Program-made: the position numbers and the translations under genes | Shown: positions 3,701 to 61,690 of the stretch, in pieces | Layout of the letters: each line of letters starts with the position of its first letter | How positions within the stretch are numbered: position 1 is the first letter of the stretch | From: Branchiostoma lanceolatum | Lineage: Eukaryota > Chordata > Leptocardii > Amphioxiformes > Branchiostomatidae | Direction: 5' to 3' | Assembly (NCBI RefSeq): GCF_035083965.1 | Contig: NC_089731.1 | Coordinates: 5,741,501 to 5,805,500 of the forward strand | DNA: 64,000 nt | The notes under the pieces: generated by a model | Databases searched by the model: none | Told to the model about the DNA's origin: nothing | What the model saw: the letters and a program-made list of their open reading frames with translations, nothing else

Positions 3701-6700
3701 TTATAAGAAGCAATCAGAAGTTTCTGTAACTCCGTCATTAATCAATCAGTTTGTTGCAAATGACCCGGAGGTCTAACAGGTTTATGAATCACATCTGTCT
3801 ATCATACCGCTTGCCAGAAATCAGAAAAAAATTAGACTTTTTTTCTACCATTTGATGTCCAACAGCTCCGGGCGTCAGCATGTCATCCACCACGATTGCA
3901 ATCATCGTTGGATCCACCGCGGGAGGCCTCTGGCTGCTCATCTGCATAGCCATCTGTGTCTATGGAGTCAGGAGGAGGAAAAAGGCGAAGGAGAAGAAGA
4001 AGTTCGCGTTCTACTACAACATGGGTCGCCGTGATCCGCCCGTAGGAAAGAGTCCCAAACGAACAAAGGGAAGTGAACCGCCGCCCTATGTTGTGCTACC
4101 AGGTGGGTATTCCTTGGAATATTGTCATCGAGGATTGATAGCCTACTCTAAGAAAAGTTTTGCTCGGTTTAGCAAGTTAGGTTATGATTGTTTGTTTTAT
4201 TTCATTGTTCCACATCTCATCTGTAAACGTAGTGCAAAACCCTTTATATATTTAGGCACCCTTTTTTTGCCAGATTGAAAAATGTCTGTTAACAAGATGT
4301 TGAAGACGGTGATGACTGTTAAATCTGTACTTAAGAATCCTATTGGTACTTGTGATTATTTCTAAATCAGTCACCTGCCTTAGAGGTAAACGACCGTAAA
4401 CGCTGCGGGGAGGGGCTCTGTAAAGACTTGCAACGTGGTAGCCACACTGCTAGCAAGCGACGCATTATTCCAGCGAACAACCCCCTAGTTCCCATCCTCC
4501 CATGATGTCTGTTCCATTCTGGGGCGAGTTTTTGACTTCGTCATCTTCGAATGAACGATTATGGAAGCTTTTAGATAGTGTTATAGACACTGGAGTCTCT
4601 CGAGCTTGCACTTCTAGCGGCATTTCTGACTTTCCCTCAATATCCCAATTCACAAAGCAACGGATATTGGGTTACATAACAGATTTAAGCGACCTAGCGT
4701 TTCAGTAAGAGTTCGTGTTACTCATTAACTGAAGTTGGTACTATCTCTGCTTGTACTACAGCAAAGCCCGTGGGGTCCAAATCCACCTACGCCGGGATAA
4801 ACACCATGAGGAAGACAGCAGCTCTCAAAGGTACTCCATCAAAGAATCACATTTCGACATATTACTGCCTCGCGCAAATCCTATAATCCTATGGAGCCGC
4901 AAAGATTAGCGAAATCCGTTACTTGATATCTTCTCATCCAGGTACGCCAAGCTCGAGTTATTTCAAGAGGAGGAAAAATTGAAGATCTAAATGATTTAAC
5001 GGAAGACACAGACATTCTGTCGAGGCTTGGGATTTGGTAATGTCATTGGTTTATCGTGATGAAGGAAAGGGTAGAGGAATTGTGATTTGTCAAAGTTATC
5101 CTACACAAAGCTATCACATAATGTGCAAACCTAATTATCTCTTAAATGTGACAGGATGATGACTTTTCATTGAATTTTATTGTAAGGTAGCGTTCTGTCT
5201 TATGACTATTACTTGCGCGGAAAACAGTCAAAAGCATAGTGATACTGTTTTGAAGAATTTTAAAAGACAGTACTAAATTGCAAAATACGTCATCTAAGTT
5301 AATCCTCCCCGAACCGAAGGTGCATAAGGTGGCGCCATCTCCGTTTCGGCAGCCCTTGGGCCACACCTTTGTGCAAGTCACTACAGCAGGGGGCTAGTCT
5401 ACTGGCAGTTGTGTGTGTTTAACTGCCATACTCTTTCCCAAATGCTGAGTGATAAGCAGAGAAAGCAGTATGCACCATTTTTAGAGTCTTTGGTATGACC
5501 TGGCCGAGGTTCGAACTCACGACCTACCGTATGCAAGGCGAACACTACACACTAGGCCATTGCATCGGTGTCTAACCCTTACCTTAACTCACATTTTTGC
5601 CGGGTACCCTTATTACATGATGCATCATAAGGAATTTTCGAGGAATACACACCTCAGATATCCAGATGGTCAAGACATCCCTGAGAAGGCCTCGATAACA
5701 CCGTTTTCTGGGTGGCGGTCATAGAGTACCAACCGGAATCATTTTAGCAGACGCTATATCAGAATGAACCAATCTTTTACAAGTCAGCCCCTCCACAATT
5801 ACCATCCTACCAGTAGTGTAGCAAGCAATATTGTTATTTACAACTACTCCCCTTTCAGTCTATCGACCTATTTTGACATTTAGTGCCGGGCCCACATGGT
5901 CGAACCCTTCGGTAGAATATCAAACAAAATTGAAAACAACTTCACGGCACCATGGTGGCAGTTCTTAACGGTTATTACCCAGCCATAAAAGTGCACTTGG
6001 GGTTATTCTATCGATTCGGTACGAAACGGCAGAATGAATATACGCGGCATATCTCTGCTATTGCTATCACGGCAGACCAGACGGAATTGTTATTGCTGTA
6101 AGCCTTAAGAATTATGACATCAGTGGATTAGTTCACGGTAAAGCATGCCGGCTTCAGCTCGTTAAACTGTAAAGGAAGAGAACTTGGATATGAGACAATA
6201 AATCGTCATTTTGAAATTTCTTTCAGGCTCGCGGCGGTTTGCGAAGGCTCTGTATTCGTACGTGCCCCACGAGGAGAACGAGCTGCGTTTGGAGGTTGAT
6301 GACATCATCGAGGTGCTGGAGGGGGAAGATGGCGGCTGGTGTCTGGGTTACCTGAGGGGCAGGATAGGCCTGTTCCCATCCAACTATGTCAAGTTCATAC
6401 AGGATCGGAGAGGTTTGTACAGGAGTGAATGTAGAAAATGCACAATATCACACAATTCCCCCATGTTCTGTCATCCATTCTGTCTAAATGCGATTGAAAA
6501 TGAACGTCTTTTTTAAATTTATTAAACCATTTTTAACACTATTTCCACTTGCTCAAAAGAATTTTACATACTTGATTTTATATATGAACTCAAATATATT
6601 TTACAAGTAGACATTACGGTAATTGAACCCCATGGCATATGTATTGATTTTCTTGTTACTATTTCGAAACGATTTTATCTATAGTTGTAGAGTTGCCCGT

Positions 6701-23298: not shown

Positions 23299-23915
<617 letters not shown>

Positions 23916-27639: not shown

Positions 27640-27900
27640 GTTCTTCCCACAGATTTTGTCATATTGGACGTCGCCCTTCTCCATTTCTATTACCCTTGGA
27701 CCACACAGCCATGTAACCGCTGCAACAGGGGACCAGAAGGGGGCTTGTCAACTACCACACCTATTTCTCATAAGTACTAGGGAGAGAAAGCAGTATGTTT
27801 CATTTCAAAAACCTTTGGTATACCCGGCTGGGGTTTGAACCCACAACCTCCAGTATGCAAAAGTAATCACGCTACCCACTACGCCTTTGAACCGGAAGAG
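27640..27900 (-). mobile_element. tRNA-derived SINE, family A (decayed copy)
   Basis: The minus strand has a head with box B GTGGGTTCAAACCCC, then the family A body (CATACTGCTTTCTCTCCCTAG and GTGTGGTCCAAGGG). Box A is altered. It is more diverged than the copy at 61,430. Confidence 0.7.
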
Positions 27901-39067: not shown

Positions 39068-39074
39068 CTCATTC
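39068..39074. repeat. Left target-site duplication CTCATTC
   Basis: This heptamer abuts the left terminal inverted repeat. The same heptamer in the same orientation abuts the right one at 55,769-55,775. Confidence 0.75.
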
Positions 39075-39422
39075 CACCCCATACAGACAGCGTTTACAGT
39101 AACTATGGGATAACGGTGTGCACCGTTAGTCAGTAGTAACGGGGCTGAGATGTCCTCCTTTCCTCCGGAGATGACAGCGTTAGTCGATAAAGTCGGGCCA
39201 GGAGTAACGGCGGATCGTATGGTGGCGGGCTAGTGGAGGCACGATGCATGTCGGGAATGACGGGAATGACCCCAGCTAGAGAAGTGACCTCAAGATGGCC
39301 GCTCTCGGATCGCAGCCCAGTCCTCGGCGCTTTGAGGAGCTAGCGTACTGGAACAAACGCCTGGATCTACCTTTCCAAACATATTCATTTCACTTAACCC
39401 CAACTGCAGGTAAGTTAGGTCT
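39075..39422 (+). repeat. Left terminal inverted repeat
   Basis: Its 348 bases are identical, without gaps, to the reverse complement of 55,421-55,768 in my base-by-base reading. A further 59 bases (39,423-39,481) align in register with about 10 mismatches, then similarity ends. Near the tip is the internal palindrome AACGGTG-TG-CACCGTT, with repeated GTAACGG words. Confidence 0.93.
39298..39409 (+). CDS. Putative first exon in the left terminal repeat
   Basis: CAAGATGGCCGC combines a good start context with a YY1-type core-promoter word. The frame starts MAALGSQPSPRRFEEL and stays open to PTAG at a perfect CAG|GTAAGT donor (phase 1). I do not recognise the protein. The donor and start sit inside the perfectly conserved inverted repeat, so an identical exon faces inward from the other end. 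Later exons are not established. Confidence 0.45.
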
Positions 39423-40146
39423 AACCACAGGGTCAGCTTTACTCGTTGATAACAATTACGCCTGGAACTATCCTTCCAAACATATCATTTTCACGTTTTC
39501 TACTGGTAACAAAACAAAACAAAACAAAACAAAACATGTAACGTTACCGGACTAATATATAACGTTATATACAAGCCCTGCAACATTCGCCACGGCTAGT
39601 ACATGTAGATCTTACCACAGGGTCTAGTTTTCTAATTGTCTTAAATTCAACTTAGTCGTGGAAGGAAATAGAAACAACAAGGTGATCAAGGTTGACCTAG
39701 AAATTATAGGAGGATTGGGAAGCAGTAAAACCAAGGACATCCTACAATGTATATAATGACCTTGAGTAAACTAAATCATGTCACAGATAGCCAGGGCCTT
39801 TTTAGCCATAAGTAATAATTACCTGGCGTCTAACCTAATCTCCAAGTAGATCTATCAGTAGCAAGGCAGTATCAGTAGGGCCTACTGAACCAGTATCCAA
39901 AACTGCAAAATAATCCAACATTCAAAACTGCACTCGGTGGCCTTTTCATACTAGTGATGAAAGGGCAAGGACAACAAAGCCTTGGTAGTATATTTTTCTA
40001 ATCTAATAGATTAAGAATTTGGGTTCATCACAATTTTCCTGAGCTCGAAACATTCTGCCTTTTTACCAAAATACACAGGAATACGCAAATATGTATAAAG
40101 GAGAGTGAAATCTACCGGAATATACTAGGCTTTGATCAGTAAATAT

Positions 40147-40590
40147 CACAGGCTGCTATATTTTGGCATTAAATAGTGTATTCATGGCCCAGGGAACAAG
40201 ACATCACTATGATCTTGAAACTACTGATGGTGATGGCGACCCGACCAGGCCTCCATGTTTTTATTGCGGATTACAATGTTGAGCCGCCCAGTTATTTATT
40301 ATAACATGTATAGTGATTTCCAGGGTCATATATATGTTATTCTAATTTCTATGCCAAAATATAGCAACCTGCGATGTTAACTTATTGAATAGTTCCGAAA
40401 TTTCCTTTTTTGTATTCCACACTGTGACCCCGCTAAACAAAGATTGTAATCCACAAATTATGAAAACAAACATGTCGCCTGGCCGGGTTGCCATTGCCAT
40501 CAGTAACTTCGTGATTCAATGATTTCTTGTTCCCTGGGCCATGAATACATTATTTCATGCCAAAATACAGCAGTCTGATGTTTACTCATT
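40147..40590. mobile_element. Palindromic MITE-like element
   Basis: The word GCTATATTTTGGCAT at about 40,153 recurs inverted at about 40,353 and again, slightly changed, at about 40,557. The arms share TTCATGGCCCAGGGAACAAG and GGCGACCCGACCAGG-like sequence in inverted order (40,180-40,270 with 40,460-40,545). This fits a MITE pair or a nested fold-back insertion. The 186-codon frame at 40,541-41,101 starts inside it. Confidence 0.7.
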
Positions 40591-42289
40591 CAAAGCATAT
40601 TCTGGTAGATTTCAGCCTCCTTTAAGGCTTTATCATTTATGGGTATTCTGGTGTATTCCGGTGTATTCTGGTGTATTCCGGGAAAAAGGCAGACCCGCTC
40701 GAAACTGTTTAAAGCACTGCTACTGTGCATGCCAACACCAAGTACCTCACACCAACTTCCAGATTCTGCCTGCAGCTCTGAACAAGAGCGATGGCATTCT
40801 ATTTAATCTAATGTTGTGCACCCAAAGATTTCTCTATGCACCTAAATTGTTAGGCTGGGTGCACCGGTGCTACACACCTATCCTCAAAATTGAATTTCAA
40901 GCCCTGCTAGCTAAGCTGGATGATATTTTGCATAGCTCTTTGGTCGAGGGATCTAGTACATTGTATACTTGTAAAGGCCTAGGAAAAACATGCTTTCTCA
41001 ATCCGGGTTCTCAACTGACCCTGGCAAAAAAACTGACAACCCTAGCTTTTTTGGCGGCCGCTGGCAAGGGACACAATAGTTTCAATCTGACATCTGAGTA
41101 ATGAATTTAAAAATAGACTTCTTGTATTTCAAACTCAAACTTTCAAACGTTTTATGTAGGAGTGTATTCCTTTTTTTGTTGTTAACTTTAAGTTAAGTTT
41201 ATTAATATACTTGTGCTTGTGCAAAGTACTAGTATATCTCTCTGAATAATATTATGTTGAAAATACCAGTGCTTCAAGTGAAATCTAAAAGAAAAAGAAA
41301 TAACAAACAGAATACCTAGCTACCAAAACTGGAAACAGCACTTTTTCCCTAGGCCTAAGGCTCATGTAATATCATAACATGGCTCTAATAAGTCTACCGG
41401 GACCAGTTACGGTACGGCACCATACAATATTTGTATTTTGCAGACCAGTTAACATGAAGGCGCTTAATTTAGATTAATTTGCTATAAAGATAGTTGTATG
41501 GCTCTTTGGTCCAGAGACAGGGATATATTCTCAATCTCAAATTGATACTTACTCTCCCCCCACCATCACTGAAAGGTACTGAACTGTATTTCAGCAGGTT
41601 TCCAGAAAAGGTGACTAGGCTAGGAATAGTGGGCTACCTTGGCAGGCTACCTCCCTCCACTTTTAGGGCCCTATTCACAACAATTCACATTTTTCACACT
41701 TTCCAATATTCAATGCCAGGGTGCCGCAAAATTGATTTTACAACAATTCTTCTTAGCGTGAGAAAAAAAACAACAGAAAACCCAAGTAGGAGGGTGGTAG
41801 AACACAGGAAGGTACATTTCTTTTGTGTTAATTCTCATCAAATACAATACTTTATATACTGGGGGAGAACAATGTTTTAAGGTTTTTAGCGGTGATTGTC
41901 TATACAAGCAAGGAGGTTTATCTTGATAAGTTGAACTGTTTCATTTCAAATCCGGCAATGCTTTCCTTCCAAAGACTTTTATTAATAATGAGCATTGCAT
42001 TGATTTCTAGGCGATTAGAAGTCATGAATAAACCGTGCTTACCAATTTGAAGCGTGCAGAGTCTATTCCTTACTTTCACGCTTAGAAGAATTGTTGTAAA
42101 ATCGATTTTGCGGCACCCTGGAAGTGCATCTTGGGAAGTGTGAAAAAGGTGAATATTAATCCAGGCTTGGTATTAAAGGGATCACTCCAACAATCCACCT
42201 GTAGACTGCTCCCTGTGATAATTCCTCCCCCTCCATACTCATCCTAGAGACATTTACACCCCAGTTTATGCTAGACTATATTTAGTGCA

Positions 42290-43880
42290 GATGAACCAGC
42301 GCATTATGGTAAGTGACTTTTAGTCTTGGGAGACGGCTGAATTTGTGTCTGATGACAGGTTGGCAGAAAGACCTGTCCAATCCGGACAGCGGAGAAATCT
42401 GTCTGGTCCGGTTAGACAGATGGAGCCCCCTGACCATCTGATGTATTGCCGTATATCCTAACATTAAGTGCACTGATTGGCTAAATGGGGTTCTGCATGC
42501 AAATCTCATTATTCATGCAGCATTCAGAAAGATTAGCGACAGTGTTGTCTTTTCAACTTCCTTGGCGACACAGCTTAGGCAGGCAGTAAATTTCTGGCGA
42601 GGTCTGATCATATGGCTGCTAGCAGGTCACTGAGTGTCACCACAATTAGCCAATGACAGACAAGGTTTTGTGGGTTATCATCATGCAAAATACTAAGAGG
42701 GAGACTGATTTGTGTTATCAGTGGTGTTTTAATCTTAGCAACAAAAAAACAACTTCTTCCCGCTGGCACGCGTTATTATACAAGCCTGCGTGGGGCAGCA
42801 CGCAGCACGTATCAACAATGCATGTTTCACACTAGGGGTGGGTACCGCTACAGAAACTTCCGGTCCAGGTCCAGTGGGTCTGTACCAGATTAAAGTAGTG
42901 CAGCAGTACATTATATTTTAGATAGTGAGACCTACAAATTATGTTCAAATTGTATGTCAGAATGAAATAGCTATTTTCAGTGCACACTATTAAATGTGCA
43001 GAAAGGAAACAAAGATGTAACAAAACATTTTATTCCAAGGTAACTTTTATCTCACAAAAGAGATTCAGAGGAAACTTGTCCTTCTTGGGGTACAATGTAA
43101 TTGACAACTAGACATCATGACCAACAAATGATCCTACTTTAGAGGCTTAACAGTTTTCAGCAGTTCTAAGAATTTGCTAGCTTATCATGATAAAGCTAAA
43201 ACAAAAAGTAATATGACTATGGGCACATGATATAATTTTTTAGGTTCACAATTTGTCTCTACATGTAACTAGACTCGCCTTGCCGTCTGTTGACTTATCC
43301 TTTAAGTGTTACTAGATATCATTCACAGCTAACGTCTTTGAAAGAGAGCAACCATGATTCGTTAAATCTGCTGTTATTATGTGACCACCTATTTCACACA
43401 ATGAAACTAGCGGGGCCATGTGAGCCACGCCCGGCACCCAAACTCTGATCCTCCTGCCTATGGGCTTGTATTTGTGCCACAGGACCCCTCTGTTCGATAT
43501 GACTCTTTCAAAAGTGTTCAAATTAAACGCACACGCAAGCGAAGAATTATTTTTAAGCTAATAAGTCATTTCAAGATGTATGCTTTGCAATGAGTTAGTT
43601 TAATATGTAGCTGTGTCACCAATAATGTTGAAAATACTACACTCTCGCTAATCTTTCAGAATCCAGTGTAAACAATGAGATTTGCATGCAGACCCCCAAC
43701 CATCCAATCAGTGCACTTCATGTTAGGATATACGGCATGCAACACGACGGACTGCTTGCAATTCTATCGCCTTCTTCCAGGAAGCTCAACCTGTCAAATG
43801 GGACCAAACAGGTTTTTTCTGCTGTCCAGACCGGACAGGTCTTTCCGCCAACCCGTCAGATAACTCACAGGACCTGATTA
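42290..43880. repeat. Inverted repeat pair, arms about 240 bp
   Basis: 42,345-42,545 and 43,645-43,870 are diverged inverted copies. Shared words include TGCATGCAAATCTCATT with its reverse GAGATTTGCATGCAGA, TATCCTAACAT, ACCTGTCC and CGGACAG. About 1.1 kb lies between the arms. It is possibly a fold-back element with unique interior. Confidence 0.7.
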
Positions 43881-44029
43881 TCTACATAACTATTACTAGT
43901 AATGTAGTTAATATGAGTGTACCACAGAAGATCATTGGAGTGCTGTTCTCAAACTTCCAAGTTATTGGTGGGATCTGAGTCACCTGACACTGTGAGGAAA
44001 TATTTGCATGGCTAATTAGTACATGTAAT

Positions 44030-44660
44030 ATTTGCATGACTCTTTCGTCTGGACACCGGGTAAGGGACTGTATGTGTAACACTTGTATGCATACATGACT
44101 CTTTGGTCTGGACACCAGCCAGTGCTGGAAATACTGGGTCATGTGCACTTTTGTACTACCAAAATTGAAGCTGTGCACCTAATGTTAGTCTGCATGAATG
44201 TTAGTCATGAATTGTAATAGCAGACAGTGAGTCATCCAGGCCCCCTGGGGGCATTTGTCCTAGAAAACTGGGACAGTCAGCCACAGGTGTCAGACAGATG
44301 TAGTAAGTTCAGTTGTATATAGCCAAAATTTCCACAATTGGTTGCTTTTCCTTGGTTTTGCAGAAAAAAAAACACATTTTATTCTAACATGGAAAGACAA
44401 AACATATGTTTGTACTGCAATGAAAAAAGAGGGACAGTCACATTCCAGAAAGACCACTGCAAGAAGTTGGTAACAAGAGCAAGAGGTAGACATCAATCAA
44501 GACATTCTAGCAGTTAATGCAGGTCAGCTGACAGTTCGTAGACATATAAAACTGCTATCTCTCTGGTCACACTCCTTAGGTAAGGTACTGCACAGATGAT
44601 ATTTGTATGGCTCTTTGGTCTGGACACCAGGTAAGGTATTGTTTAGGAAATATTTGCATA
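44030..44660. repeat. Diverged repeats around GGCTCTTTGGTCTGGACACC
   Basis: Versions occur at about 44,036, 44,098 and 44,610, preceded by TATTTGCATG-type sequence and followed by AGGTAAGG-type sequence. Weaker versions are near 40,935 and 41,497. They are direct repeats. Confidence 0.6.
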
Positions 44661-44777
44661 GTTTGTAGACCTGGGAACTGGATTAATATTCTTGACATTT
44701 GCACGGGTGACTGGGTGTTAGCTTAAGTGTGTTATTAGAAGTACATAACTCAGAACATTTCTCTTTTTTTTCTCCAG

Positions 44778-44951
44778 GGATTGATGTCTGAAAAGGTGAA
44801 ATGGGAGATGGAGCTCTTTATGCATCACTGTCATCTGTCTAGAATGGTCAAGGCACCAGCATTAATTAGTAACAACATTATTGGTCTGACTGAAGAGAAT
44901 ATTGAGAAGATGGAATCGACATGTGCAATGGTTAGAAATAGAGTGCCATAA
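44778..44951 (+). CDS. Possible exon inside the left arm
   Basis: A strong pyrimidine tract and CTCCAG acceptor precede 57 open codons (GLMSEKVKWEMELF at the start, a helical Asn/Glu/Met-rich end) and then TAA. Its mirror copy near 49,050-49,119 on the minus strand has an insertion and stops, so only this copy could code. It begins in phase 0 and so does not join the phase-1 exon at 39,298 directly. The product is not recognised. Confidence 0.3.
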   Translation, partial: GLMSEKVKWEMELFMHHCHLSRMVKAPALISNNIIGLTEENIEKMESTCAMVRNRVP

Positions 44952-45222
44952 TGAACTGTAAAATACCAAAAGTCTGTTGGTTTGATTTGGTCCCATTCAT
45001 GCCTAGTCCTCTGAGTGGCACATGTCTAGGAATAAGTCTCTAAAACTGTATAAAGCATATAGTGAATGTACTCTGTATCAGCTCAATATTTTGCATCCTG
45101 CTATACCATCAGTACTAAGTGTGATACTGTAAGTATGCTTCTCCAATAGGAGTAACAGTTGTTTTTAGAGCATTTATTAAAACTACCTCTATTCACGCTA
45201 TTGTTTCAAATGTCTTTTGTCG
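44838..45222 (+). repeat. Inner inverted repeat, left arm
   Basis: This pairs with the reverse complement of 48,512-49,119. Shared words include CATTGGTCTGACT, GAAGAGAATAT, CTAAAACTGTATAAAGCATA and TTGCTTCTCC-like sequence. The right arm has an insertion of about 250-290 bases. Confidence 0.8.
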
Positions 45223-45224
45223 AC

Positions 45225-46848
45225 AACGTTGCCCAACAATAGTGCAATTGAGTCTGTCCAGACATGCCGGTCACAGAAACGTACATTTTGACCAAAGAAA
45301 CTCAAGCGGGGCACCCCTGAACGAAAAATTAGATTTTTTTGAATTTCGATGACGATAACGGATTTAACCAACAAGGGTGTCATTGAGTCTGTCCAGACAT
45401 GCCGGTCACAGAAATATTCATTTCGATGTACTGAATTCTATGGGGGACCCCCCTGAATGGAAAATTAGATTTTTTTTAAATTTCGATGACGATAACGGAT
45501 TCAGCCAACAAGGGTGTCATTGAGTCTGTCCAGACATGCCGGTCACAGAAATATTCATTTTGATGTAATAAATTCTAGGGGGACCCCCCTGAACGAAAAA
45601 TTAGAATTTTTGGAATTTCGATGATGGTAACTGATTCAGTCAACAAGGGTGTCATTGAGTCTGTCCAGACATGCCGGTCACAGGAATATTCATTTTGATG
45701 TAATAAATTCTAGGGGGACCCCCCTGAATGGAAAATTAGAATTTTTGGAATTTCGATGACTGTAACGGATTTAGCCAACAAGGGTGTCATTGAGGCTGTC
45801 CAGACATGCCGGTCACAGAAATATTCATTTTGATGTAATAAATTCTAGGGGGACCCCCCTGAACGAAAAATTAGATTTAAAAAAAAATTTCGATGACGTT
45901 GCAGATTCAGCCAACAAGGGTGTCATTGAGTCTGTCCAGACATGCCGGTCACAGAAATATTCATTTTGATGCAATTAATTCAAAGGGGGGCCCCCTGAAT
46001 GGATAATTAGAATTTTTGGAATTTCGATGACGGTAACGGATTCAGTCAACAAGGGTGTCATTGAGTCTGTCCAGACATGCCGGTCACCGGAATATTCATT
46101 TTGATGTAATAAATTCTAGGGGGACCCCCCTGAATGGAAAATTAGAATTTTTGGAATTTCGATGACGGTAACGGATTCAGTCAACAAGGGTGTCATTGAG
46201 GCTGTCCAGACATGCCGGTCACAGAAATATTCATTTTGATGTAATAAATTCTAGGGGGACCCCCCTGAACGAAAAATTAGATTTTAAAAAAAATTTCGAT
46301 GACGTTGCAGATTCAGCCAACAAGGGTGTCATTGAGTCTGTCCAGACATGCCGGTCACAGAAATATTCATTTTGATGCAATTAATTCAAAGGGGGGCCCC
46401 CTGAATGGATAATTAGAATTTTTGGAATTTCGATGACGGTAACGGATTCAGTCAACAAGGGTGTCATTGAGTCTGTCCAGACATGCCGGTCACCGGAATA
46501 TTCATTTTGATGTAATAAATTCTAGGGGGACCCCCCTGAATGGAAAATTAGAATTTTTGGAATTTCGATGACGGTAACGGATTTAGCCAACAAGGGTGTC
46601 ATTGAGTCTGTCCAGACATGCCGGTCACAGAAATATTCATTTTGATGCAATTAATTCAAAGGGGGGCCCCCTGAACAAAAATTAGAATTTTTGGAATTTC
46701 GATGACGGTAACGGATTTAGCCAACAAGGGTGTCATTGAGTCTGTCCAGACATGCCGGTCACAGAAATATTCATTTTGATGTGACATATTCTAGGGGGAC
46801 CACCCTGAATGAAAAATTAGATTTTTTTTAAAATTCGATGACGTTAGC
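45225..46848. repeat. 135-bp satellite array, 12 units, with trimer higher-order repeat
   Basis: The word TGTCCAGACATGCCGGTCAC recurs at steps of 134-137 bases, with unit anchors at 45,251, 45,386, 45,523, 45,658, 45,793, 45,929, 46,064, 46,199, 46,335, 46,470, 46,605 and 46,739. Units 5-7 and 8-10 match as a 406-bp block, shown by the shared GAGGCT variant and the repeated 61-codon frame. Each unit has a G5-A-C6 near-palindrome and the inverted repeat GTCTG-TC-CAGAC. Confidence 0.95.
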
Positions 46849-46998
46849 GGAAATATAGACGGCAATAACACATGCTAACAGTGCCAATTCAGTTGATTCA
46901 TGCGCTTCAGTCAAAAGTCGCTTGGAAATATAGACGGCAATAACACATGCTAACAGCGCCACGTCAGTTGATTCATGCGCTTCAGTGAAAAGTCGCTA
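46849..46998. repeat. 75-bp tandem duplication beside the satellite
   Basis: GGAAATATAGACGGCAATAA starts copies at 46,849 and 46,924. The copies differ at only a few bases. Confidence 0.92.
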
Positions 46999-47219
46999 GG
47001 ATACCATAAACTGTTTTTTGGAAATATACTTTTTCAAACGTATCAAAAAGGATTTAGGAAGATCGAAAAATCAAATAACGATTTTTTACTAATTTTCTAC
47101 ATCATCATTGATGAAAAAAAGGTTTAAACTCGGCAATGAACGCAAGTAATGCAATGCGTTGTGCTGTACACGACTGTAGGTTAAAAATGAAGACAGATAA
47201 ATTGCGTATATTCTCAAGA

Positions 47220-48290
47220 AGAATGACGGGAGGCCAAAAGTATTGATATCGAAGATAGATCAACATATTAGCTTACTGCTGTGAAAGTTTCATCGAAAAT
47301 TAGCACTTCCTTCTCGTTTTACAAAGCAAAGTGGAGTTCCGTTAGGTGCGGCTCAAATCTACACAGAATTGTCTATGCGGAAGACAGCCGTTGTAAGGCG
47401 GCTTCGGTTTTCGCAAGACTGGGCGTCTTTGCTTTTCAAATCTCCCCTAGAAAACAACGGATTTCTCTCAAATTTGGTCGAAATGTTCATGGAAGCTTAC
47501 TGAGTCGTTGTATGAATTCCCATGCGTTTACCGCTACTGGTTATTGAGTTATTAACAGTTGATTTTCGTTCATTGAATTATTGCTTTCTGGCAACACTTT
47601 CCCTACGATAAAGTTTACATTTCTCCTTAAGTATTGAGTGCAAACACTCAGAAAGGAATGGTTGATACCACCGAAACGTTTTCAGCAGATTTGTATGAAA
47701 AATTGTGTCAATTTCACGATGTAAATCACTAAGTTGCATCATTCTTATGATGTCGGACTTTTCCGTTTGACCGTGCTGCAAAATAACGATATTTTGATAA
47801 TCTATATCCTCAAGCAGAAACGTGGAATAGCAAAACTGCTAAAAGCACAGACAGATGAGCATATTGACCTACTTTTGTAAAAGTTTCATCTACAAATATC
47901 ACCTCCTTCTTCTTTTATGAAGGAAAACGCAGTTCCGAAAATCGAGCTAGATAAGTCAATGTGAAAGATAGCGGCCTCGCTTTGCCCGAGACTGGGAACT
48001 CTTGGAATGCAAGGAATCTAGCTGACATATTCATGGCAGTCATTGTATGAATTCCCAAGCGATGAGTACAATTGGTAATGGAGTTACTAACAGTTGACTT
48101 TCCGATAATAAATCATACTTTATGGCACAACTTTTAAACGCAAGCTGAAGCATTGGGTGAAAACACTCAGAAAGACAGCAGTAATTACACTGAACTCACT
48201 CTAGATGAGCATATTACCCTACTTTTATGAAATTTTGATTGAAAAGTATCCATTTCTTCCTGATTTATGACGGAAAACGCACTTGACCAT
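47220..48290. repeat. Three diverged direct repeats, central region of the element
   Basis: Blocks near 47,260, 47,853 and 48,200 share ATCAACATATT/ATGAGCATATT, then GAAAGTTTCAT-type, TTCCTTCT-type and AAACGCA-type words. The first two extend to about 300 bases, including a shared ATTCATGG...GTATGAATTCCCA segment. Confidence 0.6.
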
Positions 48291-48511
48291 GACTCCAGAG
48301 GTTTTCAAAACACTGTGCCTATCACATGACACTCGACAGGTGTCAGATAGCTTTTCTGAATACCAAAAAATTTATTGTTACCTTCGCCAAGAGGCCATTT
48401 ATTCTAGAATTTTTATGTATGTATGTATGTTTGTACGTATGTATGTGGTTTCGCAGCATAACTCAAGAAGCTATGTGACGTTTTCGAAATAAAATATAGC
48501 TATGTACAATG

Positions 48512-49119
48512 CACACAAAAGCTATTGGAAGCAATAGAGTGAATAGGGCTAGTACAGTTTTAATAGCTGTTCTAAAACATAAGTGTTACTGGTACTCCTG
48601 TAATTCACTTTACCTTCACAGTAGCACAATTTGACAGTGTAAGGAAAATTGACATTTTCATTGAACCCAAACTTCACGGTGGCAGCAAGTGATCTACAGA
48701 AAGGATGTGTGAAGGACTCATAAATAATTACAACAGTTTTTTTTTAATGATAAGTTCATGGTACAGAGATAACCGTGAAAACAGTGAACATAAAGTTTCA
48801 GTGAAAGAAACAAGAATACTCCTATGGGAGAAGCAAACTTACAGTATTATCGGACCATTCAGTATTACACTTACCAACAGAATACAAAATATTGAGCCGA
48901 ATATACAGATACACTATATGCTTTATACAGTTTTAGCAACTTATTTCTACACATGTGTCACTCAAAGGACTAGGCATGAAAAAGGATCAAATCAAAGTTG
49001 AAAACAACACAGACATATATGGTACTATTTCTAACCATTCTATGTGTTGATTCCATCTTTTGATATATTCTCTTCAGTCAGAGTCAGACCAATGATGTTC
49101 TTAATAGGCTCAACCATGA
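48512..49119 (-). repeat. Inner inverted repeat, right arm
   Basis: Reverse complement partner of 44,838-45,222. It is interrupted near 48,570-48,840 by unrelated sequence. The exon-like stretch in the left arm is broken here. Confidence 0.8.
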
Positions 49120-50160
49120 TGACAGCTGTATTCATAGAACATATATACAAACATACACATATATATATATAACAGAGACTTTTGGCTTCCTTGTTGAATC
49201 AGTCATAACTGTGGTGCCACTGACATGCTTTTTCCACGTGCCTTTTCGGGGTCACCCTCACTCTCATTGACTTCTGTTATGATAACAGTCTAAAGGATAA
49301 CTAGTAGCTTAAACAACAATGCAATTGAAATTGGTTATGTACTGTGTTATTACATATAGAAATACATGCATGGGTACAAAGAAAGCTGTCAAATACTTGA
49401 ACAATTGCACTTACTGACAGGTTACTGTAATCCTGTAATGCATAATGACTGATACTTATAAGAGACACGCAAACTGGGTGCCCACAACTGTGCATTAATG
49501 ATACATCTTCAATCTAGTAAAGACCTATGAATTTTCAAAGCATCTGTATCAGAGTCATTGCCATTGTAATAACTACATACACATGTACAGTGCACAGGGA
49601 ATTTTTAAAATGTTTTTTTAATCAGTTTGTCAGCCTGATGTTGCCATCGATTCCACGAAGAAAGGGGGCTCGTACATCATCAACATACAAATCAAAAATA
49701 ACAATACACAAAAGAGAGTCACATCACAATCTTGCCTCGAATTTACATTTTGTCACCCGCTCTAACATTATCATCATCACATTTGTTTTCATATTGAAAT
49801 TAAATTGCAGGAAGGATTTCTACATGGGTAAACTTTTACTAGCTGTAATGTATTGTTTAAGCCTCAATGCATGATAAAAGATAGGACTTGGTTGGTGTTG
49901 ATACATGACTCCTCCATGCAGTTGAATAAGGTAATCCATTGTTGTCATCTCATGTGTACATATACATGATATAGGACATTGATGGGCTGCCTGGGTTGAA
50001 TATTGTCAGCAGCCTCAGCACCTATAGAAAGAAGAACAAATGTCTTATAATGTTATGACAACTATAAAGACAAATACACTACAGAGAATAGTCTTGGCAA
50101 GTTAAGCCTTTGACGCTTGTCCCTGTGACTGCTCACTCATCAAGAACTCTGATCTAGATT
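49120..50160. other. Right arm interior, no gene recognised
   Basis: AT-rich sequence inside the element. Open frames are short and have no motif. Confidence 0.3.
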
Positions 50161-50167
50161 TGTCAAC

Positions 50168-50218
50168 ACACACACAAAAATACTTGTGCTCATATTCACA
50201 CAAACATTTATATATATG

Positions 50219-50259
<41 letters not shown>

Positions 50260-50292
50260 TATAAACACACGCTCATTTTCACACACATATAC

Positions 50293-50336
<44 letters not shown>

Positions 50337-50482
50337 CTACACTCAAACACCCACAATTACACAAATTCACACAAACATGCACTCATTCACACACATATAT
50401 ATTCAAACACACACACATATATATATAAATATATAAAAAACACACACGCACACACACACACGCACACACACACACACAATTT
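50168..50482. repeat. (CA)n microsatellite cluster
   Basis: Several CA runs are separated by short AT-rich breaks. They create spurious His/Thr and Cys/Val frames. Confidence 0.96.
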
Positions 50483-50829
50483 TCAAACACACAAATACAG
50501 AAATTGATTTGTTTTGTACCACTGTGGTAAACGGCCTCAATTATCTGCATACTAATGTGTATGTATCACTATGTTATTTAAAAGGAAGGGTGAGTGACTC
50601 AGTGTATTTGGATTTATTTCAGCTTGTACAATAGACCGATAAAGTAGTAAGTGTATCATTGTCATTTTAACTACCAAGTCCTTCATTTCAGGACAGACTG
50701 AATTTACATGCATGCAGCTAGATATGCTCTTTCCTGTGTGAAAATTTGCTCTTTCCCACAATTTTACTTTACTATAAAATGGAATAAGATATTGTTGAGT
50801 ACCACTGTATGTATGAATACAGGGCAAGC

Positions 50830-51654
50830 TGGCTTATTGGCTATAGTACAACCAGCTGCCCCTGCATACTTGTAAAGGTAAAAGTTAATTTACACTGAAG
50901 GGCAAGTACATACTGTACATATAAGTAACAGATCATAGACTCTGTTCATACCAGGAGTTGTGAACCAGGGTTTACCCAGGCACTGAGTCAGAGATTGATT
51001 CCTATTCAGGATTCCTGGTATAGGGATGAATGGTCAGAATCAGGATTAATCCTGAGGTAAGCCCCCTTCCCCCACAGAGCTTGATACTAGTATTCGGACC
51101 ATTCAAATCCTGTTGAAAAATTGTATGATATGAAATATCACAGTACATGTTGTGTTACATGTAATTTAGGTGAAATTTGGAGCACAAAATCTGATCATAA
51201 TGAGTCTGAATATCTTTCACCATAGATAGTGATGGGATTCTTTTCCAAGGATGAAACAGTGCACATTGCTTTGTGGGTCACTAGGACAATTGCATCATAG
51301 ACTATATATATAGTCACTATACTGTGGGAATGGATCATGTTTAGCTTTCTGACAATACTACTGACTTTTAAACTAAAGGAAACTGTGTATGGATGGGAAT
51401 AATCCAATAAATACCAGGACAGGTATAACAGGAAACATCATCAGATCAGACTTAGGACGAGGCATGCTGCATTATGGTAACAGGGAACAGTTTGCAGGAT
51501 TATTAAAGAAATAAAGACCAACTGAGTTCAACACTAAGAAGATGTTTTCCACTTAAGCATATTTCAAAAAAATCTGAGAACCAACAAATTAAATTGCTGT
51601 GGCCCCAATGTCCCTCTCTTTCTCAGTTACATATGTCACATGTTGGGTTCCCGA
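50830..51654. other. Right arm interior, no gene recognised
   Basis: No exon, RNA gene or clear repeat could be supported. A short palindromic word, CTATATATATAG, occurs near 51,302. Confidence 0.3.
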
Positions 51655-52795
51655 AAAATGGCCCCAAGGCTATTCATGGGGGTTTGGCCTGTAATGGAAT
51701 TTCTTTTAGAAAAAGATGGAGCAATCTATGGGTAGGCTGGAGAAACTGATGATATTGATGGACCTATGATGGGCGTGGTGACATGCACACACACACACAC
51801 AGTATACATTCAACAAGCACACAAGCACACAACATATTATATACCAATACTCATAAAGACATGCACACTACCAGTATCACACATACTCACAAACACTAAA
51901 TTAAATACAGTCTGTATATCTGTATTCAAGGTGTGAGACAATTCTGTTATGTTTGTGTCATACAGTCTACAGAGCCTCACTCATTGCCTGGCCCATCAAA
52001 CTTCCAGCTTTCTTTACTTTCCCTTGTACCCCTCCCCTCCCATTCCATTCCATTCCATTCCATTGACTTAGAATTTTGTTTATAAAGAATCCAAAATTGG
52101 TGGCTTTTCTACCACTTAGTAGTATTGGTGGAGTTCTTCATATTGCTGCGACCAAGCTATAGCTGTGTACCTATTTTAGGTACAGGTACGGGTACACGGG
52201 TTTATATTAGGTACAGGTCCACACCTGAACCTGTACCTAAACTACTTGTTCGGAAAATGGTAGATTTTCAATAAGGACAAAAGCATGTTTGAACTGGTAA
52301 CAACATAATATTCATCTGTGCTAGGTACTATTTTTTACAAAAACAGAGATGAAAACTTGACTCCAGCCTTGCAAATGTGTTTTATGTGCTGGAGTATTGT
52401 ATGTAGATGTGGCTTTAGTTTAGTGCACTGCCAGAGTAATTTCATAGTAATTTCATCTGTCAAAGTGGCCATCCCCTGAGTCAGGCTTGACCTGATTAGT
52501 ACCTGTCCAGTACTGGTCCACCAGGGTTCAGGTATTTTGGACCTGTACCCTAATTGATTGTAACCGGTACTGTATCCATACAGTGTACTGGTACACAGCT
52601 TTAGATCAAGCACTATACTTAGTAATCTCCTTACCCCATCCCCCCCAGCAGTTGCCTTCCTTCCAGCCAAGGAGGTTAAATATCTAACCTCCTTACTCCA
52701 GCCTACCCGAGGCTTGACCCAGTTTCTCCTCAAGGTAAATTCCATAAGAGGCCAAACCCCCATGCATAGCCTTAAAGCCTAGAAAGGGTAGGCGC
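51655..52795. repeat. Inverted repeat pair, arms about 100 bp
   Basis: 51,655-51,755 pairs with the reverse complement of about 52,675-52,785. Both contain AAGGCTATNCATGGGGGTTT, GGCCT, TTATGGAATTT-like sequence and GGGTAGGCTGGAG. The arms are diverged and about 0.9 kb apart. Confidence 0.7.
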
Positions 52796-54257
52796 CCACC
52801 CCACTAGCTAAGCCCTGGGGTAGCCACTTTTTCCGAAATGCTGTCACGTGTTTGAATAGTCCTATAACAGAACACAGCATGTTTATAAAATCTCCTCACT
52901 ACTAATAATGCATATTGGGTAAAGCATGATGCTTTTTCAAGCAGCTAGTGGCATTGCAATGTGGCTTTGCTACAGCTATCGTTTTTGGACAATCACACCG
53001 GGTCACCCCCACTCTTCTCGATAAGTGTGTTGGGTCATTTCCTTAAGCTTTACATGCAGACGTTTGGCGCTTGAAGCTTATGCCTTAAGCTCCCTCATAC
53101 ACAGAGCTGCTGGACACCTGCCCACCATGCAAAATGACAAATGCAATATATAATCCCTTACAACGAATATATGAAGAGGGCAAAACAAGGAGCCCTGTAT
53201 GTTGGCAGTTGATTGTTTCAAAGTTTTTTCTTTTGTTGATTCCTAACAATGAAATAGTCTCTGCACAGTAGGGCAGAGTGGGTAAAGACAAGATGGTATG
53301 GCTGTAAGTTCTGAATCATAGTGGTTTGAACCATTGGAGTCTGGAGGGGGGAGGGGTCTTTCAATGAACAATAATCCAGGATGGTGGGCCATCCTTATAC
53401 AATACAATTGTCTAATTCAGTCCTATATATATGAAAAAAAGGGAAAAAATGGTTGTGAATCCTTTCTTAAGTAACATGTTCTTAATGGTGGAAAGTGTCT
53501 GTGTTACAGTACCGGTCATGATCACGAAACATGCATCAGAGATCTTGAGTAGGTTTAGCAGAAATTCGTGAAATTTTTGCAAAACCTCAGTTGCTTCCGA
53601 AGTACTGTTGGTTGCGTAATAAAAAATTGTCTGGACTCTCGGATTGCGGAAGTTCTTCCACAGAAGAAATCTAGATCTTCAGCAGGATTCTAGTTCTGAA
53701 ATTGCATGGTATGTGTTGGTCCATACACCGCTGGAAGAGTCCATTCTTGTATGAGGGGGACATTTTCAAAAATTCAATTTTGAGCTTGGTTGATTATTAA
53801 AAAGGTCCAGTTTGTTTTTTGAATGGTCCAGTATGAATGTGGGTGCCTGGAAGAGCCCATCCATGCATAGGGTTTCAGACTGGAGAGATCTGACTGGTCT
53901 TCAATTCAATTCTTTATTCAAATACCAACATTGCAGACATACAACAAACGTTAGCCTGGATGACGTTGATATGTTCTTACTTTATACTAGTTAAATGTTA
54001 TTTTGGAATGCTCCATTTTTGCATTAGAACAGTCGCTTTTTGCATGGGGAGGGAAATCTGCGATACATGATGTATTTGCTCGTGCAAATGTTGCCTTTCT
54101 AGTTATAAATATGAATTGTTTTTTTTCTTTCTTTTATTTGAGTTGACTGTGTGATAGCTGTGTGCCAATTTGTTATATCAAAAATAGAGAGAACGCTAGC
54201 GGCCCCAAAAAATGACCCCTTCCAATGAAATGGTATGGCTACCCTGCCACGTCACAA

Positions 54258-54275
54258 AATCAAGATGGCGGCCAC
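54258..54275 (+). promoter_or_regulatory. YY1-type word with ATG inside the element
   Basis: CAAGATGGCGGCC is a close match to the YY1 core-promoter motif. The ATG opens only about 20 codons. It is weak evidence for a start site. Confidence 0.25.
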
Positions 54276-54463
54276 CACACATGCCGACAAAACCAGCAAA
54301 GGTTTTGCTACCCAAACCTGTAACTAGAAAGGCTGATGTTTGCTACCGAAGAAATACAGCATATTTCACCCCCTCCTCATGCAATAATGGACGTTTTGCT
54401 CGTGTGTTCCTGCAACGTGACCTCTGGTAACCAGGTCAAATGGAACATGTGTTCCATTTGGCG

Positions 54464-54562
54464 GGTTCGTACCAAGTTTAAAGACCTGTGGGTCCGTACA
54501 AAGTTTAAAGACCCGCAGGTCCGTACAAAGTTTAAAGGCCCGCGGGTCCGTAAGAAGTTTAC
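54464..54562. repeat. 27-bp tandem repeat, about 3.5 copies
   Basis: GTCCGTACAAAGTTTAAAG-type units repeat every 27 bases. In one frame they read as a nine-residue VRTKFKDPx repeat, but the surrounding frame is short and unsupported. Confidence 0.85.
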
Positions 54563-55420
54563 AAAGCCACAGAAATGAAGATTACAGACCTGCAGATGGA
54601 GCCTTCTGATTGGTCAACAAAATCTAGCTATATGATAGTTTATAAACCTCAGTGTGCTGTATGAACTTGTAAGCACACAAAAATTGGTGCAGTTATCCGG
54701 CATAAGTGACAATGCGCCGCGCAGATATGCGGAGTCACTAACAATAGAGAGAATGGGACCCAGTTTGGGATTCGGTGCAATTTAATGTAGTGTGCTTTAA
54801 TCTGTTGCACAATTAAGTGGCATCTACTGTATTTGCATTTTTGAAACTGGTTGCAGCTAATGGGATACTGGTTGTCCCTGTTTATACTGCCTTGCCACTG
54901 ATAGATCTGCTGGGAGATTAGGTAAGGCAGGGTAGCCTCTGAAAGTGCTCATGCAACAGCGGCGTATACTTCTAGTATTTTTTTCGGGGGGGGGGGGGGG
55001 GTACACGATTTCTTACATGGGCCAAAGGTCCATACTAATGCTCACTTTAACTTTAAGGCAACATAAGTCCCTTGGCGGTGAAACACCCTAAGCCGGCATA
55101 AAAGAAATCACGTTACATCACCCCAAATATATCAAATGTATATGCTGACATTCCAGGAAGTCTACGATGGAGGCTAATTATAAGATCAAGATTATTAAAA
55201 TCTGAAGTAACCTCCTTGCTTGCTAAGACAGGGATGAATGCCAGGATATAATAACCAACATAGTAATGGTTAACCCATAGTAATAGTCTCCGGCTAGTTG
55301 GGTAACCCTGGCATGTACTGTACGTACATGCATGCTGAACCTATAGATGTAAACCTCCTTGGTTTGGAAGGATAGTTCCATGCGTAATTGTCATCAACGG
55401 GTTAAGTGGAACCTGGAGTA

Positions 55421-55768
55421 AGACCTAACTTACCTGCAGTTGGGGTTAAGTGAAATGAATATGTTTGGAAAGGTAGATCCAGGCGTTTGTTCCAGTACGC
55501 TAGCTCCTCAAAGCGCCGAGGACTGGGCTGCGATCCGAGAGCGGCCATCTTGAGGTCACTTCTCTAGCTGGGGTCATTCCCGTCATTCCCGACATGCATC
55601 GTGCCTCCACTAGCCCGCCACCATACGATCCGCCGTTACTCCTGGCCCGACTTTATCGACTAACGCTGTCATCTCCGGAGGAAAGGAGGACATCTCAGCC
55701 CCGTTACTACTGACTAACGGTGCACACCGTTATCCCATAGTTACTGTAAACGCTGTCTGTATGGGGTG
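55421..55768 (-). repeat. Right terminal inverted repeat
   Basis: Perfect reverse-complement copy of 39,075-39,422. Outward of it is CTCATTC; inward the match drops to about 83 percent over 59 bases and then disappears. Confidence 0.93.
55434..55545 (-). CDS. Putative first exon in the right terminal repeat
   Basis: Mirror copy of the exon at 39,298-39,409: same ATG, same frame and same GTAAGT donor, pointing into the element on the minus strand. No following exon was found. Confidence 0.4.
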
Positions 55769-55775
55769 CTCATTC
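55769..55775. repeat. Right target-site duplication CTCATTC
   Basis: Direct copy of the heptamer at 39,068-39,074, directly outside the right terminal repeat. Confidence 0.75.
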
Positions 55776-59030: not shown

Positions 59031-59227
59031 GCGGGAAACATACGCTTTCTATCGGGGACCCTCATACCTCTTCCCGTGACTCATGGCGCCAGATTTGTCA
59101 CGGAGGCTGTATCCCCAAGACGGCAGGACGTGCCAACGGAATTATATCATTCTTTACCGAGGAGGGACAACTGCTGCAATATGCTAGTGGGTGTAAAGTG
59201 TTCGCTGATGGGTAGACTTTGAAAATG

Positions 59228-59345
59228 AAGCAAACTGCTTTCTCTCCTTAGCACCCAGCACCAATGAGACAGAGTATGGTAGTTGAACACGTACTAGCGC
59301 TCTGTTGCATTGCTTGCTCATTTGTGAGGCCCAAGGACTAAAGAC
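59228..59345 (+). mobile_element. SINE family A fragment without tRNA head
   Basis: The body matches other family A copies (ACTGCTTTCTCTCC, AGAGTATGGTAGTTGAACAC, GTGAGGCCCAAGGAC), but the tRNA-like part is missing. It starts about 200 bases after the Helitron fragment. Confidence 0.6.
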
Positions 59346-59399
59346 ACGGAACACAGTGAAGGAAAATGAAAAGACCAATCCTTAATGTTTTAAGCCCGA

Positions 59400-61429: not shown

Positions 61430-61690
61430 GGTGCAATGGCCTAGTTGGTAGAGTGTTCGCCTTGCACGCGGTAGGTCGTGAGTTCGATCCCCGGCCGGGT
61501 CATACCAAAGACTATAAAAATGGTACATACTGCTTTCTCTGCCTAGCATTCAGCATTTGGAAAAAGAGTATGGAAGTTAAACACACATCACTACTAGCGG
61601 ACCAGCCCCCTACTGTAGTGACTAGCACAATTGTGTGGCCCAAGGGCTACAAAAAATGGAGATGGGCGCCACCCCTATGCGTCTTATCAA
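61430..61690 (+). mobile_element. tRNA-derived SINE, family A (best-preserved copy)
   Basis: The head resembles a tRNA-Ala(UGC): box A TGGCCTAGTTGGTAGAG, anticodon loop with TGC, and box B GGTCGTGAGTTCGATCCC. The body matches the copies at 5.3 and 27.6 kb. The head joins the SINE body directly, so it is not a free tRNA gene. Confidence 0.85.

Follow-up and report, generated by a model that had tools for sequence, protein, structure and literature searches.

A probable 16.7-kb non-autonomous DNA transposon with long, identical inverted ends in the lancelet Branchiostoma lanceolatum

Introduction

Galileo elements of Drosophila are described as carrying target-site duplications (TSDs) of 7 bp, some of 8 bp, and terminal inverted repeats (TIRs) of about 0.3-1.2 kb (PMC4168063, PMC3573991, PMC2775673, PMC3688188). 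Published Galileo copies include ones with long TIRs and 7-bp TSDs, with nested insertions or tandem arrays, and without a transposase; the longest D. willistoni copy described (9,021 bp) harbours tandem repeats of approximately 140 bp and pieces of other elements, has identical TSDs and is missing part of the transposase (PMC4168063, PMC3573991). Here we analysed 64,000 nucleotides of the Branchiostoma lanceolatum genome (NCBI RefSeq assembly GCF_035083965.1, contig NC_089731.1, positions 5,741,501 to 5,805,500 of the forward strand; this whole stretch is "the window", and positions below are counted from its first letter). The window harbours a 16.7-kb element with perfect inverted ends flanked by a 7-bp direct repeat. 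The element is very probably a non-autonomous, long-TIR, fold-back-like cut-and-paste DNA transposon, perhaps recently active, of a known general kind and unusual in its size and CpG pattern.

Two chordate systems are also relevant. Pdre2, a zebrafish P element, is described with an end starting CATACC, a 13-bp TIR and an 8-bp TSD. The TIRs of the lancelet ProtoRAG elements contain the 9-bp sequence GCCATCTTG, reported to be the site recognised by YY1 and to correspond to the TR5 element; full-length ProtoRAG TIRs drive transcription of reporters, an activity repressed by lancelet YY1 (PMC7481187).

Results

Ends and target-site duplication

The limits of the element and its ends are as follows (CpG o/e, observed/expected CpG ratio):

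39075-55768: element proper, 16,694 bp
39068..39074: left TSD, CTCATTC
39075..39422, forward strand: left TIR, 348 bp, same as the right end; GC 0.53, CpG o/e 0.89
39423..39481, forward strand: continuation of the left TIR, 83% identical (49/59; 83.1% ungapped) to its partner at 55362-55420
55362..55420, reverse strand: continuation of the right TIR, partner 39423-39481
55421..55768, reverse strand: right TIR, same as the left
55769..55775: right TSD, CTCATTC

The original prediction of a transposon at this locus had matched the two ends by eye, and the comparison confirmed it: positions 39075-39422 are identical to the reverse complement of 55421-55768 (348/348). The TIR opens with CACCCCATACAG, the element end starting with CACCCC. 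CTCATTC adjoins both outer ends with no spacer (7/7), as also predicted, and the flank letters are incompatible with a duplication of 5 or 8 bp. Random position pairs of the window shared a 7-mer in only 18 of 200,000 draws, so the abutting repeat is not a chance expectation. TIRs directly abutting a short TSD are the structure of a cut-and-paste TIR DNA transposon, and perfect identity ending exactly at the 7-bp repeat supports the predicted insertion. The limits first proposed (39068-55775) hold if both 7-bp repeats are counted, while the element itself spans 39075-55768.

Beyond the perfect repeat, 49 of the next 59 positions are identical, giving an extended TIR of 407 bp (97.5% identity); gap-free similarity fades past them. 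Of the exact inverted matches of at least 16 bp, the 30 longest were taken and those containing A, C and G listed; only the TIR pair appeared in this list. BLASTN self-comparison of the window (expectation value, E, up to 1e-3) revealed no further copy of the 348-bp end beyond the opposite end.

Inverted arms and internal layout

The two halves of the element (39075-46000 and 48000-55768) were compared with each other. All matches at E <1e-3 were inverted and nested in order, with the exception of one short inverted self-repeat of the TIR end (39451-39494 with 55450-55491). No direct-orientation match was found to E 0.05 (the best was 0.052). The outermost inverted match pairs 39075-39481 with 55362-55768, and the remaining internal features are these:

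39830..39926, forward strand: second inverted block, 83.5% ungapped (76/91) and 75% gapped identity to 54832-54926
54832..54926, reverse strand: right partner of the second inverted block
44867..45220, forward strand: inner inverted blocks, 83-85% ungapped and 73-76% gapped identity to partners in 48515-49106
48515..49106, reverse strand: right partner of the inner inverted blocks
40065..40662: imperfect palindrome in the left arm, possibly a nested fold-back MITE (miniature inverted-repeat transposable element)
41683..42154: second imperfect palindrome in the left arm, possibly a nested MITE
45233..46851, forward strand: tandem array of 12 copies of a 135-bp unit at the element centre

Within the inner blocks, 44867-45154 pairs in inverted orientation with 48817-49106 (85.0% ungapped over 267 positions) and 45151-45220 with 48515-48590 (82.9% ungapped over 70 positions). 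The similar ungapped identities of the blocks (83.1, 83.5, 85.0 and 82.9%) are consistent with one old inverted duplication. At the neighbouring rate of 10 differences in 59 positions, the probability of observing 0 in 348 is approximately 1e-28; the outer 348 bp therefore appear to have had a separate, later history, and would have been homogenised later. The element has a fold-back structure, with 407-bp TIRs and colinear inverted blocks reaching 45220 and 48515 and unrelated DNA between them. This supports the fold-back organisation originally proposed and extends it inwards.

The locus might instead be a segmental inverted duplication or a misassembly next to a chance 7-bp repeat. That would also account for a single copy, and an inverted duplication would likewise give inverted blocks of similar divergence. 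Nevertheless, this explanation is highly improbable: the perfect repeat stops exactly at the 7-bp repeats, which are rarely shared by chance (see above), and an assembly inversion alone would not produce 83% inner continuations together with an outer direct repeat.

Other repeats were observed inside the element. In the left arm, a 250-bp sequence is present in inverted orientation (42353-42575 and 43609-43858, 73% identity), perhaps the ends of another nested element. An (AC)n tract lies in the right half, between the blocks. Directly after the 135-bp array there are two copies of a 75-bp unit (46849-47001), and 47184-47655 and 47780-48174 form a diverged direct repeat (approximately 60%). 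The 135-bp array was considered as coding repeats and rejected: 135 is divisible by 3, yet the unit spacings vary by 1-2 bp and the open frames reach only 64-67 amino acids (aa).

Coding content

The element was translated in six frames, with stops as X, and searched against Pfam (E limit 0.1 in one run and 1 in others). Only two matches were found, both under the curated cut-offs and rejected as noise: WBP-1 (E 0.0042, 18.2 bits vs. a cut-off of 28.1) and PA_decarbox (E 0.026, 14.6 bits vs. 24.6). Protein Data Bank (PDB) sequences compared with the six frames of 39423-54424 gave a best E of 0.27, taken as noise. These searches bore out the earlier statement that the element has no known transposase, polymerase, integrase or Rep. 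Mobilisation in trans is inferred from the lack of detectable enzyme genes, and the non-autonomous passenger envisaged in the original prediction is the simplest reading.

Four host exon stretches served to train codon-usage scores. Among the 45 rows listed, the top score inside the element was 16.6 (in the TIR, on the strand reading outward) vs. 214 for the host gene PM20D1, and no stretch of the element scored near the host exons; these scores are weak evidence because the training set includes the PM20D1 exon that ranked first. The longest stop-to-stop frame inside the element (192 aa) was equalled in 3 of 200 simulated interiors, overlaps a palindrome and matched no Pfam family. Neither an Rfam match nor a tRNA was found in the window. 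We treated the interior as non-coding, although a new gene made up of small exons would escape detection.

CpG depletion of the arms

CpG o/e was computed with tandem repeats masked, and the window was segmented with a two-state model whose states were set by hand at 0.85 and 0.25. Only two depleted segments were found in the window, both within the element, and the remainder was undepleted:

39594..45195: left CpG-depleted arm, CpG o/e 0.37, TpG and CpA raised
45196..48485: centre without CpG depletion, CpG o/e 0.90
48486..54193: right CpG-depleted arm, CpG o/e 0.24, TpG and CpA raised

CpG o/e was 0.86 for the left flank and 0.85 for the right. When the left flank was divided into 24 overlapping segments of 5.6 kb, the values ranged from 0.71 to 0.99, and the lowest single 1-kb flank bins had a value of 0.55. 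The right subterminal stretch (54194-55420) was intermediate (0.50) and was grouped with the flank by the segmentation. The central 135-bp minisatellite is not CpG-depleted, unlike the surrounding arms.

Raised TpG and CpA are expected from deamination of methylated CpG. Judged from base composition, the arms may have been methylated in the germ line for a long time and the TIRs not, the arms resembling a long-methylated transcribed body and the TIRs unmethylated promoters. In B. lanceolatum, methylation is described as lying nearly all in gene bodies, increasing with expression and decreasing with CpG density (PMC6292497). It is also possible that a CpG-poor interior was captured from a heavily methylated genome. 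Strand skew was considered as a sign of transcription and rejected, the arms falling inside the range of the left flank.

Promoter-like features of the TIRs

Each TIR contains a YY1-type element and a candidate first exon, located as follows:

39291..39299, forward strand: CAAGATGGC, reverse complement of GCCATCTTG (9-bp YY1/TR5 element)
39295..39409, forward strand: candidate inward first exon, from ATG to the donor CAG/GTAAGT (hypothetical)
39407-39415, inward: left splice donor, CAGGTAAGT
55428-55436, inward: right splice donor
55544-55552, reading inward: YY1 element of the right TIR

In both TIRs the candidate exon has an ATG and 38 codons, open to a consensus donor, and the YY1 element overlaps that ATG, which lies in a good Kozak context. 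CAGGTAAGT occurs within the window only in the two TIRs. The YY1 9-mer has four occurrences in the window, namely both TIRs, 54261 (in the element) and 38467 (in the left flank), and is therefore no more than suggestive. Base composition and these motifs suggest that the TIRs may act as inward promoters (YY1 element, ATG and splice donor), with the arms as the transcribed body.

The same features bear on whether the element might be autonomous, with its own unrecognised transposase gene spliced from a first exon in the TIR. An ATG and donor in both TIRs, the restriction of CAGGTAAGT to them, the rarity in simulation of a 192-aa frame, and a CpG-depleted body like that of methylated lancelet genes (PMC6292497) agree with such a gene. 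However, the interior shows neither a domain (Pfam, PDB sequences) nor a codon-usage signal, and two length-limited searches found no protein relative of the TIR exon: among targets of approximately 231-735 aa, three candidates shared words with it and none matched at E up to 10, and among targets of approximately 50-159 aa there was no candidate. The TIR exon was thus rejected as a known protein, and an autonomous element is very unlikely.

A more speculative proposal, which we consider improbable, is that unmethylated inward TIR promoters controlled by YY1 transcribe the arms convergently. The host would methylate the body as it does a gene, erasing CpGs, and the convergent, partly self-complementary transcripts would yield either a spliced, unrecognised transposase or small RNAs acting against the family.

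Superfamily placement

The most likely superfamily is P (Galileo-like), a tentative best guess and not a finding of membership; P, hAT and Mutator assignments are versions of the same reading, that of a non-autonomous cut-and-paste transposon. The 7-bp TSD fits the P superfamily range of 7 or 8 bp, and also some hAT families. A P-type transposase (THAP, GTP-binding and RNase H-like domains) is absent from the element in the six-frame Pfam and PDB-sequence searches, and we therefore do not classify it as a P element; the absence is expected of a non-autonomous copy, and mobilisation by a P-type enzyme remains compatible with it. TAACGG occurs in the TIR at positions 37, 49 (reverse), 63 and 131 and was considered as an array of transposase sites. 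Some 6-mer was present four or more times in 192 of 2000 simulated TIRs, and the same held for 56 of 135 flank blocks, so this repetition is not significant and the array was rejected.

Galileo families have in common an end sequence of approximately 40 bp, and a THAP binding site is expected some 60-80 bp from the end. The likeness to Galileo, drawn from published descriptions, consists of the 7-bp TSD, long TIRs, change in TIR length and many copies without transposase. The lancelet element differs in its host, in being nearly twice as long as the 9,021-bp copy, and in its tandem array, which is central whereas those of Galileo are described inside the TIRs. Pdre2 shares with the element a chordate host, an end starting with CA and subterminal inverted repeats, but its TIR is far shorter (13 bp), its TSD is 8 bp long and it is described as carrying a THAP9 transposase-like gene.

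Mobilisation of the same kind of element by a hAT transposase, with a 7-bp rather than the usual 8-bp duplication, is unlikely. Animal hAT ends often start with CA, as here, but hAT elements seldom have long TIRs or fold-back arms. In the Repbase paper, an example command retrieves hAT families whose annotated TSD is 7 bp, and families of this kind would therefore seem to exist (PMC4455052). Neither a hAT nor a BED domain was found in the element, although the lack of domains is equally true for P.

Assignment to Mutator, as with Foldback and Tetris, is distinctly unlikely. The long TIRs of Tetris in D. virilis contain tandem repeats, the element has no conserved open reading frame, and its authors assign it to Mutator; the lancelet element resembles Tetris and Foldback in its long TIRs, its tandem repeats and the coding capacity not found. 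By contrast, the Tetris TSD measures 8-10 bp against exactly 7 bp here, and the tandem repeats of Tetris and Foldback lie within the TIRs while ours are central.

A gene-stripped Polinton/Maverick or RAG-like (ProtoRAG) element is scarcely credible. The size is near the 15-25 kb typical of Polintons (PMC6431247), and the lancelet host and the YY1 element in the TIR recall ProtoRAG (PMC7481187). ProtoRAG is described as encoding RAG1-like and RAG2-like proteins, and the six-frame Pfam search of the element found no PolB, retroviral-type integrase, ATPase or RAG domain. Polintons have 6-bp TSDs and RAG/Transib elements 5-bp TSDs, against 7 bp here. ProtoRAG ends also differ from those of this element, and its TSD is 5 bp. 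Membership in Polinton/Maverick and in ProtoRAG/Transib was rejected on these grounds. Dada, described with 6-7 bp TSDs and insertion in small-RNA genes, and without TIRs in Dada-U6 and Dada-U1, was also rejected: the TSD length fits, but the element has long TIRs and the window neither an Rfam match nor a tRNA.

Comparison of the TIR with plasmids, and of its first 25 bases with viral contigs, gave no match, and none was expected. No published description of the element was found in the titles or abstract openings surveyed, and the family may already be catalogued in Repbase. The suggestion that it represents a new class was not supported, since all of the traits in question, from long TIRs and a 7-bp TSD to nested insertions, a tandem array and the absence of transposase, are already published for copies of Galileo.

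Flanking DNA

Immunoglobulin (Ig)-domain exons lie to the left of the element, at 1.3-3.4 kb of the window. The stretch 1316-4278 contains exons of an Ig-domain protein (a V-set domain, then two more Ig domains) with a hydrophobic, probably membrane-spanning stretch recognised by eye. An SH3 exon lies at 6226-6396 and the PM20D1 gene at approximately 24.5-26.5 kb, its best database match being B. lanceolatum PM20D1 (95% over 97% of the query), which places the host in Branchiostoma and closest to B. lanceolatum. Upstream of PM20D1 there is a long (ATA)n tract (87 units, 23300-23561). A dispersed repeat of approximately 150-250 bp, perhaps a SINE (short interspersed nuclear element) or a MITE, is present in the flanks in both orientations at 65-85% identity (5317-5564, 27672-27893, 59214-59350 and 61432-61685).

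Discussion

The history we propose for this transposon is as follows. An inverted duplication would have built the arms, now approximately 83-85% identical where alignable, and the two halves would later have come to contain different DNA. A transposase supplied from elsewhere would have paired the two identical ends; the 16.7-kb unit would have been cut out and joined to the target by staggered cuts 7 bp apart, and gap filling would have left CTCATTC on each side. Gene conversion, or end-templated repair at the time of a recent transposition, may have homogenised the outermost 348 bp.

Several points weigh against this history or against the P placement. Only one copy was found within the 64-kb window, and the 348-bp identity could reflect conversion in place and not recent movement. 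The three innermost block pairs are 73-76% identical once gaps are counted, and between the blocks the two halves contain approximately 4.9 kb and 5.7 kb of mutually unrelated DNA. The shared block identity is weak evidence of one age because a local search sees only blocks above a floor, and the inner blocks could instead represent the TIRs of another, nested element (44867-49106). Strand skew in the arms falls in the flank range, so strongly unidirectional transcription finds no support there. A THAP-type site was not demonstrated: the repetition of TAACGG is not significant, and no scan with a THAP consensus was made. TSD length does not settle the superfamily because of the 7-bp hAT families of the Repbase command and the 8-bp TSDs described for P elements other than Galileo (zebrafish Pdre2, Anopheles P and Drosophila P); the Dada paper gives approximately 8 bp for both P and hAT.

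Cut-and-paste transposition is said to be less efficient above approximately 6 kb of cargo, although artificial constructs have carried 100-200 kb (PMC6431247). With its identical ends and 16.7 kb of non-coding DNA, this natural unit raises the question of how large passengers are paired and moved. Depleted arms together with undepleted ends and flanks may be an inexpensive sign of gene-body-type methylation settling on a transposon, in a species where gene bodies are reported to contain almost all of the methylation (PMC6292497). If the element is of P type, it would suggest that Galileo-like elements exist beyond flies.

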